This document shows, one piece after another, positions 178 to 52,240 of a stretch of DNA of 64,000 nt. The translations under genes and the position numbers were made by a program. The notes beneath the pieces are model-generated. The model was not told the DNA's origin and ran no database searches. It worked only from the letters and a program-made list of their open reading frames with translations. Where the stretch lies: assembly GCF_010119195.1 (NCBI RefSeq), contig NZ_WRXL01000007.1, positions 1-64,000 of the forward strand, in the 5' to 3' direction. Within the stretch, counting starts at the first letter, position 1. The number at the start of each line of letters is the position of its first letter. The stretch comes from Haloarcula salina. GTDB lineage: Archaea > Halobacteriota > Halobacteria > Halobacteriales > Haloarculaceae.

Positions 178-310
178 ACAGGGCAGTCTCTTTTCAGCCG
201 CCTCGTTCGCGGACCGCTGTCTCGCTCGATTCGAAAACTGTGGTTTCCGAGCGATGTGAGACAGCGCTCGTGATCGTAGCGATTTGACGAAAAACGGCCG
301 CTCGCGGTCG
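178..310. other. intergenic hairpin region downstream of the oxidoreductase
   Basis: Non-coding. It carries an imperfect inverted repeat: GCTGTCTCGCTCG at 216-228 pairs with CGAGC..GAGACAGC at 248-265, with a five-base bulge. This could fold at the 3' end of the oxidoreductase transcript. A T-run (TCTTTTC) lies near 187-193. No ORF here looks real. Confidence 0.4.
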
Positions 311-387
311 TTACTCGGACTCTGCTGGAACGACGGTGACGCTCGCGACGCGGTCGCCGTCCGCTAACTCCATGATCGTCACGCCGC
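311..387 (-). pseudogene. displaced second copy of the gyrA 3' end
   Basis: Bases 332-385 match 511-564, inside the gyrA 3' end, at 52 of 54 positions. Alignment continues to a stop codon in the same place: TAA at 311-313 against TAG at 490-492, offset 179. Read on the minus strand, the copy encodes [20 protein letters not shown] followed by AESE, while the real GyrA ends in the same stretch followed by VDAE. The copy has no start and no promoter of its own, so it is a remnant, not a gene. The last codons have diverged most. It is separated from gyrA by a hairpin-rich spacer. Confidence 0.85.
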
Positions 388-489
388 TTCCACCTTTTTC
401 ATCGTCGGGGTTCCTCGCTCGCTTCGCTCGCTGCGGGACCCGTCCTCGAAAAACGTGGGCGAAAAAGGCGCTCGCTTCGCTCGCGCTCG
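386..489 (-). repeat. hairpin spacer between the two gyrA 3' ends; possible gyrBA terminator
   Basis: Read in the gyrA direction, the spacer has two copies of the core GAGCGAAGCGA, at 472-482 and 419-429. The first lies in a short GCGC/GCGC stem right after the gyrA stop. It is followed by a T5 run (462-466) and a second T5 run (448-452), a layout that would suit archaeal termination at oligo-T. The second core lies in a longer imperfect stem with outer arms GGGT..CC and GG..ACCC. The same core occurs beside the sucD and tRNA-Arg 3'-end copies. Confidence 0.65.
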
Positions 490-4868
<4,379 letters not shown>

Positions 4869-18542: not shown

Positions 18543-19411
18543 GTGTGCTAGTCGACGAAGACACGCGCGTCGTTGTACAGGGAATCACCGGCGGTGAAGG
18601 GAAGTTCCACACCGAACAGATGCTGGAGTACGGCACCAACGTGGTCGCCGGGGCCGTCCCCGGCCGCGGCGGGCAGGAAGTCGCCGGCGTCCCGGTCTAC
18701 GACACGGTCCAGCAGGCCGCCCGCGAGGAGGACGCCAACGCCTCCGTCGTGTTCGTGCCGCCCGCGTTCGCGGCCGACGCCTGTTTCGAGGCGCTGGACG
18801 CGAAGGGCATCGACCTCGTCGTCGCCATCACCGAGGGCATCCCGACCCAGGACATGGCGCGGGTCTACCGCAAGCAGCAGGAGACCGACACGCACCTCGT
18901 CGGGCCGAACTGCCCCGGCGTCATCACGCCCGGCGTCGCCAAGCTCGGCATCCTGCCCGGTAACATCTTCTCCGAGGGGAACGTCGGCCTCGTCTCCCGC
19001 TCGGGTACGCTGACCTACCAGGTCGTCGACAACCTCACCGACCGCGGCCTCGGGCAGACGACCGCCATCGGCATCGGCGGCGACCCGATCATCGGGACGG
19101 ACTTCATCGACGCGCTCGAACTGTTCGAAGCCGACCCCGACACCCACGCCGTCGTCATGTGCGGCGAGATCGGCGGCGAGGACGAGGAGGAGGCCGCCCG
19201 CTTCATCGGCCAGAACATGGACACGCCCGTCGCCGGATTCATCGCCGGCCGCACCGCCCCGCCGGGCAAGCGCATGGGCCACGCCGGCGCGATCGTCTCC
19301 GGCTCCGGGACCGGGACCGCCGAGTCGAAGATCAACGCCCTCGAGAACAACGGCGTGCCGGTCGGCGACACGCCGGAAGAAGTCGCGGACCACATCGAAG
19401 ACCTGCTGTAA
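18539..19411 (+). CDS. sucD: succinate-CoA ligase (ADP-forming), alpha subunit
   Basis: 290 residues. It has a Rossmann CoA-binding domain ([19 protein letters not shown]) and [11 protein letters not shown]. The phosphohistidine loop is [17 protein letters not shown], where the His is transiently phosphorylated. It ends [19 protein letters not shown]. About 90 bases of its 3' end are repeated immediately downstream, interrupted by a hairpin insertion; the intact gene itself is full length. Confidence 0.97.
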
Positions 19412-19430
19412 CAGGAGATGAAACCCGGCG

Positions 19431-19603
19431 TCGACGATCACCGCCCTGGAGAACAACGGCGTCCTGCGCGAATGGGGCGCGGTCGACCGGCGGGAGACCC
19501 GCCCCGAGCGCAGGGCTCGATAGACGAACGGAGTGAGTCTATCGGCGTGCCGGTCGGCGACACGCCGGAGGAAGTCGCGGACCACATCGAAGACCTGCTG
19601 TAG
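19431..19603 (+). pseudogene. interrupted second copy of the sucD 3' end
   Basis: Bases 19431-19462 match sucD 19325-19356 with 3 mismatches in 32. Bases 19544-19603 match 19352-19411 with 2 mismatches in 60, down to the stop codon (TAG against TAA). Both parts share GGCGT, at 19458-19462 and 19544-19548, and the 81 bases between are unrelated to sucD. A reading frame from 19418 ends in the exact SucD C-terminus [19 protein letters not shown], but it has no conserved N-terminus and no visible promoter. Confidence 0.88.
19463..19543. repeat. 81-bp two-hairpin insertion with 5-bp flanking direct repeat
   Basis: The insertion is made of two adjacent hairpins. The first, 19463-19514, has outer arms CCTGCGC and GCGCAGG and inner arms GGGGCG and CGCCCC. 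The second, 19519-19543, has 7-bp arms GATAGAC and GTCTATC around the 11-base loop GAACGGAGTGA. It splits the sucD copy and is bounded by GGCGT on both sides, like a target-site duplication. No protein is encoded. The second hairpin has the same arm length and loop length as the one at 52063-52087. Confidence 0.8.
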
Positions 19604-51939: not shown

Positions 51940-52013
51940 GGGCGTGTGGCCTAGTGGACTAGGGTGAGGGGTTCCTAACCCCTAGATCGCGGGTTCGAAT
52001 CCCGCCACGCCCG
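51940..52013 (+). tRNA. tRNA-Arg (anticodon CCT)
   Basis: 74 bases. Acceptor arms GGGCGTG and CACGCCC pair fully, discriminator G. The anticodon stem AGGGG/CCCCT encloses the loop TTCCTAA with anticodon CCT, reading AGG. The T arm is GCGGG-TTCGAAT-CCCGC. The D stem uses two G-T wobbles. No intron. No CCA is encoded. Partial copies of its 3' half continue downstream for more than 200 bases. Confidence 0.93.
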
Positions 52014-52043
52014 TTACCGCCGAGCGATAGCGAGGCGTGTAAC
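52013..52043. repeat. hairpin 1 after the tRNA
   Basis: GTTAC-CGCC pairs with GGCG-t-GTAAC around GAGCGATAGCGA, which keeps the GA-GC..GC-GA frame of the common core with a four-base GATA tip. It begins with the last base of the tRNA. Confidence 0.65.
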
Positions 52044-52240
52044 GGCACGGGATTCGAATCACGCGAGACGAGCGAAGCGAGTCTCGCTTCGGGTTCGAAT
52101 CCCGAGAGACGCGGGAGCGTCTCTCGACGTTCGCGAAGCCTGTGGCTTTGCTCACTCCCGCCACGCCCGCTCACTCGCGGTGCTCGTTCGCGGCCGTGGC
52201 GATCCTCGCGAACGCGTTGCGTTCGCTCAGTCCCGCACGC
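52044..52240. repeat. hairpins alternating with partial copies of the tRNA-Arg 3' end
   Basis: Copies of the tRNA 3' half: a decayed T-arm at 52049-52060; the exact 15-base T-arm CGGGTTCGAATCCCG at 52090-52104; the exact 14-base acceptor end TCCCGCCACGCCCG at 52156-52169; and TCCCGCACGC at 52231-52240. Between them lie hairpins at 52063-52087 (GCGAGAC, loop GAGCGAAGCGA, GTCTCGC), 52103-52126 (10-bp stem, GGGA tip), 52133-52151 (GCGAAGCC/GGCTTTGC) and 52208-52226 (GCGAACGC/GCGTTCGC). No gene is present from 52014 to 52330. Confidence 0.85.

Follow-up and report, generated by a model that had tools for sequence, protein, structure and literature searches.

Why does the 3' end of the gene for DNA gyrase subunit A occur twice in succession in this haloarchaeal DNA, with hairpins between the two copies? 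In the window, the whole stretch of 64,000 nucleotides that was analysed, gyrA lies on the minus strand at 490..2949 (open reading frame and NCBIfam gyrA equivalog, 1112 bits against a cut-off of 877) and ends with the stop codon TAG at 492-490. The last 24 codons and a stop recur on the same strand at 385-311, about 100 nt past the gene end. A repeat search delimited an ungapped direct repeat of 87 nt with 87% identity around the hairpin spacer, confirming the layout of gene end, hairpin and gene end described in the initial annotation. The gene-joined copy (478..564, minus strand) includes the start of the hairpin behind the gene, and the distal copy (299..385, minus strand) has an in-frame stop TAA at 313-311 and no start codon of its own. 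BLASTN self-comparison of the window returned the same repeat with an expectation value of 1.6e-23. The start-to-start distance of 179 is the offset noted earlier, and a direct reading of both copies agrees with the earlier count of 52 identical bases out of 54. Likewise, the two stops fall at the same alignment position, and the frame and stop are kept while the final codons differ (VVPVDAE* in the gene-joined gyrA, VVPAESE* in the distal copy).

Directly behind the gyrA stop, a GCGC..GCGC hairpin (468..489, minus strand; fold prediction and sequence) is followed by two T5C tracts read from the sequence at 466-461 and 453-448, the first of which (461..466, minus strand) is terminator-like. 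These tracts are the T-runs, and positions 419-429 and 472-482 the two GAGCGAAGCGA cores, that the initial annotation had placed in the spacer; the core occurs 3 times in the whole window, with 0.23 occurrences expected. A shorter counterpart of 461-489, consisting of a hairpin and a T5C tract, lies behind the distal copy at 289..312 (minus strand; sequence and a weak fold, z +1.03). The spacer is occupied by a dispersed hairpin element, here called E, which runs from CCACGTTTTTC to GAAAAAGGTGG at 390..467 on the minus strand. The 3' base of E, GGTGG (394-390), adjoins the copied gyrA end through the linker AAGC (386..389, minus strand). This linker is common to G003, G004, G018 and G262 and is one base shorter in G019 (G numbers denote genomes, G000 being that of the window, and L numbers denote loci).

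A search of the gyrA region against its own genome showed that the middle part of the spacer recurs at many other places. The covariance model R1, built from thirteen copies, matches E at gyrA with 82.5 bits and has 26 hits in the own genome, 23 of them at E<=0.01. R1 matches were also found in 35 of the 41 genomes of a relatives search and in 197 of the 242 genomes of the class (haloarchaea). E is a hairpin repeat of 60-80 bp that reads in gene sense as CTTTTTCGCCCACGTTTTTC, a stem and loop, and GAAAAAGGTGG. In its paired columns, 95.2% of the cells are paired (60 distinct sequences of 68), and 33 double-sided changes were counted vs. 7.8 in shuffles, a value above 500 of 500 shuffles. The exact E core is present in named species of Haloarcula, Halomicrobium, Halorientalis, Halosimplex, Salinibaculum and Halovenus. 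None of the Rfam 15 covariance models matched window positions 200-700 at E<=1, and a phage collection gave no match; a plasmid search gave three haloarchaeal records.

The family includes several variants. A subtype with GTAC ends, CTTTTTAGCGTAG..AAAAAGGTAC, is found at L039, L041, L043, L045 and L040; four own-genome copies have no flank repeat, and L040 has an 88-bp flank repeat at 99%. A long variant, in which two additional hairpins separate CGCC from CCACG, lies behind gyrA in G015, G011 and G004 (L079, L080 and L081), where it is missed or under-scored by R1. L284 (G046) contains about three tandem repeats of GAGGGAACCCGACGAGAAAAAGGTGG, the 3' half of E.

The flanks of E were compared at 83 loci, 23 in the own genome, among them gyrA, and 60 in stretches of relatives that each contributed one E. 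The latter were taken from the upper part of the relatives-search list with array repeats skipped, and the 300 nt on the left of each E were compared with the 300 nt on the right. Direct-repeat flanks of at least 40 bits are present at 54 of the 83 loci (16 of 23 own, 38 of 60 relatives), whereas none of 200 mismatched flank pairs reached 40 bits (largest 31.0); thus, the flank repeats exceed chance. The other 29 loci have no flank repeat. The repeats are 25-224 bp long, and in all 54 cases the distal copy starts 1-10 nt behind the GGTGG of E. At 41 of the 54 loci the repeat is the end of an open reading frame of 100 codons or more, and both copies have an in-frame stop at matching positions (to within 3 nt). 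The repeat starts 22-95 nt before the stop, and once 231 nt before it. In 12 of the 53 duplications analysed, either the frame or the stop has not been preserved or the reading frame is short; at two of these (L105 and L159) the duplicated piece resembles a gene start on the other strand. Reading frames lie on the E strand only at 38 loci, on the other strand only at 14, on both at 26 and on neither at 5, a weak count given how often spurious long frames arise in DNA so rich in G+C.

The design goes beyond what the initial annotation described, for the spacer belongs to a dispersed repeat family, and dozens of genes show this layout. Besides gyrA, the host genes identified by profile are pheT, citrate synthase, mfnA, acetyl-CoA acyltransferase (thiolase), gatB, argF, ilvD and proS. 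In the argF array, gene end and E each occur three times, and the final E is truncated. At L103 (G014:C1:1318500-1320500), four identical-scoring E copies stand in tandem with a period of 170 bp. The identity of design with sucD that had been proposed earlier is not supported. At sucD (Pfam CoA-ligase domains; window 19324-19602) the last 60 bp recur after 132 bp with 98% identity and a hairpin is present, but the spacer, which holds a further 33-bp piece between the copies, is single-copy in the genome and contains no E.

The gyrA query matched in 31 of 32 genomes of the genus, and 30 loci were read. E together with a gyrA-end copy is present in seven (G000, G001, G003, G004, G018, G019 and G262), E without a copy in four (G005, G011, G015 and G023), a truncated E in one (G020) and neither in 18. 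The E of G004 and G019, which are variant forms, and that of G020 were found by reading the sequence and not by R1. A 26.5-bit match in G009 sits in the neighbouring gene and was not counted as a copy. A gyrA duplication lacking a hairpin was sought among the relatives and none was found, all seven duplications in the genus having an E-type hairpin between the copies. The junction GGTGG/AAGCGG.. is found in G000, G003, G004 and G262; G018 differs by one base in the last five of E (CGTGG), and the junction of G019 is nearly the same. The junction of G001 differs, indicating that the gyrA event happened at least twice. In G262 the order is gyrA end, hairpin, E, gyrA end, hairpin, E, followed by another downstream neighbour, and this downstream neighbourhood is shared with relatives that have E only. 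The distal copy is damaged in four of the six genomes with the GGTGG/AAGC-type junction, by loss of the stop (G018, G019), a frameshift (G004) or a premature stop (G262). This damage and the lack of a start codon argue against a coding role for the distal copy.

The gyrA ends have been exchanged in four relatives. Compared with the native, E-less end of G053, the distal tails are 91% (G003), 74% (G004), 76% (G018) and 80% (G019) identical, whereas the gene-joined tails reach only 38%, 40%, 36% and 40%, respectively, and are closer to the native end of G021 (58-62%). Because the distal tails are 74-91% and the joined tails 36-40% identical to G053, the distal copy in these four genomes is the displaced original gyrA end. 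The distal copy of G003 is identical to G053 at 41 of 41 nt up to and through the stop, and is a mosaic. Its first 37 nt match the G018 copy at 36 of 37 positions (G053, 31 of 37) and, except for one base, also resemble G087 and G021; the next 41 nt match G053 throughout (G018, 31 of 41). Comparisons over 500 nt of the gyrA body were left out of account, most rows being out of register by codons. The earlier suggestion that the distal copy may once have been the original gyrA end is thus borne out in the four relatives, while in the window's own genome the tails give no clear answer. There, against six E-less ends, the distal tail reaches at most 51% identity and the joined tail at most 44%, neither being clearly closer, and the distal tail can be aligned to the joined tail, with a hairpin and T5C in both. 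The distal copy of the window would be the old end on the strength of the common junction. A pooled tail test of five genes gave a native distal tail in 5, a native joined tail in 5 and no decision in 16 of 26 cases with an impure reference set, since truncated or long E was present in the "E-less" ends of gyrA in G020, citrate synthase in G003, G006 and G023, and the L033 gene in G009. The tail swap is therefore established at gyrA and not in general. Both tails are alike at the young loci L025, L031, L033, L037 and L040, indicating no tail swap there.

At the L033 gene, one junction is common to five genomes of different species despite different downstream DNA, the junction of G022 differs, and E is missing from most other congeners. 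The two copies of this gene end are 91-98% identical within a genome vs. 80-94% between genomes, and those of pheT are 94-100% vs. 79-92%. As the copies are more alike within than between genomes, both gene ends appear to be kept alike by gene conversion. If so, the identity of the copies does not date the duplication.

Identical E copies at distant, unrelated loci of G185, G046 and G075 have moved recently, and they have no flank repeat. In the same 20-locus set, gene-end repeats are present at four loci (three in G163, one in G041). The identity of the moved copies runs past E for 16-98 nt upstream and 3-9 nt downstream, and the full copies consist of a hairpin, GTTCAC, a hairpin, TTTTTC and E. 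Given this identity over further hairpins, E is the last hairpin of a larger small repeat. Target-primed reverse transcription was attractive as a means of movement, given the A-rich tail and the T-tract target. However, the reverse transcriptase profile RVT_1 (PF00078), the one such family searched, had no hit in any of 25 genomes, whereas the controls worked (found in 3 of 14), and the target-primed model was dropped as the main explanation. A search found no Y1 transposase in the window's own genome, and the IS200/IS605 single-strand model was set aside.

The reading preferred here, with a probability of about 0.58, is that E and the gene end duplicate in tandem with the breakpoint at the 3' base of E, and that the resulting cassette then spreads by homologous recombination. 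On this view, haloarchaea have a family of small repeats made of several hairpins, E being the one at the 3' end, and these repeats insert shortly after stop codons and carry T5C terminator tracts with them. The first stage, E behind gyrA without a copy, exists in G005, G011, G015 and G023. The gene end, its hairpin and E would next have become tandemly duplicated, one breakpoint being the 3' base of E and the other usually lying 20-95 nt ahead of the stop; the structure is observed, and G262 may represent the tandem intermediate. Judging from the junctions and tails, the cassette would then pass between species by homologous recombination, with the gene body as the left arm and the copied gene end as the right arm. 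A copied gene end serving as the right arm would allow the cassette to enter genomes with unrelated downstream DNA. The recipient would gain a new gyrA end, a hairpin and E, leaving its old gyrA end stranded beyond E, and gene conversion would afterwards keep the two copies alike. The distal copy would be a by-product, in line with its missing start and its decay in four of the six gyrA genomes with this junction. We infer the birth of the duplication, the order of the steps and recombination as the carrier; the simplest order has E behind gyrA first, then the tandem duplication, and finally a transfer in which the copied end acts as right arm. A bolder version, which falls somewhat short of an even chance, is that the mobile repeat makes its own homology arm. 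By duplicating the host gene end exactly at its own 3' base, E would produce a cassette that can enter any species with that conserved gene, whatever lies downstream, swap the C-terminus and leave the old one as a fossil. From such precision at the 3' base it would follow that an enzyme makes a nick or transfers a strand specifically at this site.

The young loci L025, L031, L033, L037, L161 and L109, where the repeat runs through the hairpin to the T-tract of E, would also be explained by a long target-site duplication. Here, E would insert de novo at a terminator T-tract with nicks 30-140 bp apart, and the stretch from inside the gene to the T-tract would be copied on both sides. The exact end of E on one side and the scattered cut on the other are as in an insertion, and the distal tail of the L033 gene retains the CGCCC of E-less relatives. 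However, the recently moved identical copies in G185, G046 and G075 lack flank repeats, one insertion does not give the two E copies of G262, and both the tail swaps at gyrA and the negative searches for RVT_1 (with working controls) and for Y1 transposase in the own genome speak against it. This explanation was kept as the first rival after the recently moved copies showed no such duplication, and is considered unlikely. Plain tandem duplication or hairpin slippage by replication errors, with E as an immobile conserved terminator, is improbable. The identical tandem arrays (four copies with a 170-bp period in G014) and the gene-end copy without E at sucD would follow naturally from such errors. 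Nevertheless, E is dispersed, identical copies of it occur at unrelated places, the junction always lies at its 3' base within 1-10 nt, and gyrA ends were exchanged between species.

Two further explanations have very low probabilities. The gyrA layout, with a restored gene end on one side and the old end on the other, outwardly resembles the remnant of an integrative element of the tyrosine-recombinase type that used gene 3' ends as attachment sites, restored the gene end and lost its cargo. This origin is hardly credible, as the sequence of E is the same at unrelated genes whose ends are all different, the spacer of about 100 bp has no integrase, the repeat length varies over 25-224 bp, and the phage collection gave no match. 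Retention of the distal copy for a function useful to the host, as a reserve C-terminus, an RNA element or a recombination landing site, is equally improbable. The preserved frame and stop at 41 of 54 loci would fit such a role, but at gyrA the copy lacks its former stop in G018 and G019 and carries a frameshift in G004 and a premature stop in G262, and the similarity of the copies would be explained by gene conversion.

The E-flanked gene ends are a real and recurrent design that resembles known small mobile repeats of haloarchaea and differs from them by the gene-end copies. None of the literature consulted describes gene-end copies around a hairpin repeat in haloarchaea. Integrative elements can regenerate the 3' end of a gene, with the old end lying beyond the insert. 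The new gene end and the old end beyond the insert are alike at E, but E has no integrase or fixed attachment site, the insert is about 100 bp, and many different genes are involved. Target duplications of MITEs are a few bp long. E is, like a MITE, a short inverted-repeat element without genes, whereas its flanking repeats are 25-224 bp and end inside a gene. PATEs, the palindrome-associated transposable elements of Haloquadratum walsbyi, are described as making no target duplication and having IS605-type-related ends (PMC3119063). Like E, they are short, non-coding, haloarchaeal elements, and the moved full copies in G185, G046 and G075 show several hairpins and no flank duplication. In contrast, E is flanked by gene-end duplications (54 of 83), and its own genome has no Y1 transposase. 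The PATE definition specifies near-terminal palindromes and no terminal inverted repeats (PMC3119063). The full copies of the E family have three hairpins, with outer boundaries set only where identity stops, and E itself is an inverted repeat. SMR-A, at about 110 bp, is similarly a short repeat with inverted-repeat ends, and no mobiliser is known for either. It lies within other mobile elements, targets PATE or IS605 palindromes and makes no duplication (PMC3119063), whereas E lies behind host housekeeping genes with duplicated ends.

E may also terminate the gyrA mRNA by analogy with haloarchaeal terminators. In a reporter assay in Haloferax volcanii, 95% of transcripts end at T5C (PMC7237163), and the TTTTTC motif is present both in E and at the hairpin before it. 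However, a terminator motif neither duplicates gene ends nor moves. If the proposed origin is right, housekeeping proteins of haloarchaea, such as gyrase, tRNA synthetases and citrate synthase, have their C-termini edited by a very small non-coding repeat, which can spread without a transposase in the recipient. It would add terminators behind genes and leave a fossil of each gene end that it replaced. Near-identical gene-end copies should not be taken as a clock, since gene conversion appears to keep them alike.

Two further observations were made in the window. In the region 51940-52200, several partial copies resembling a T-arm lie behind a tRNA-Arg (CCT) and alternate with hairpins; a GAGCGAAGCGA core is among these. 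Positions 1-177 recur at 98% identity at the very end of a second contig (C10:387355-387531) of this genome, indicating that the contig of the window starts in or near a repeat.
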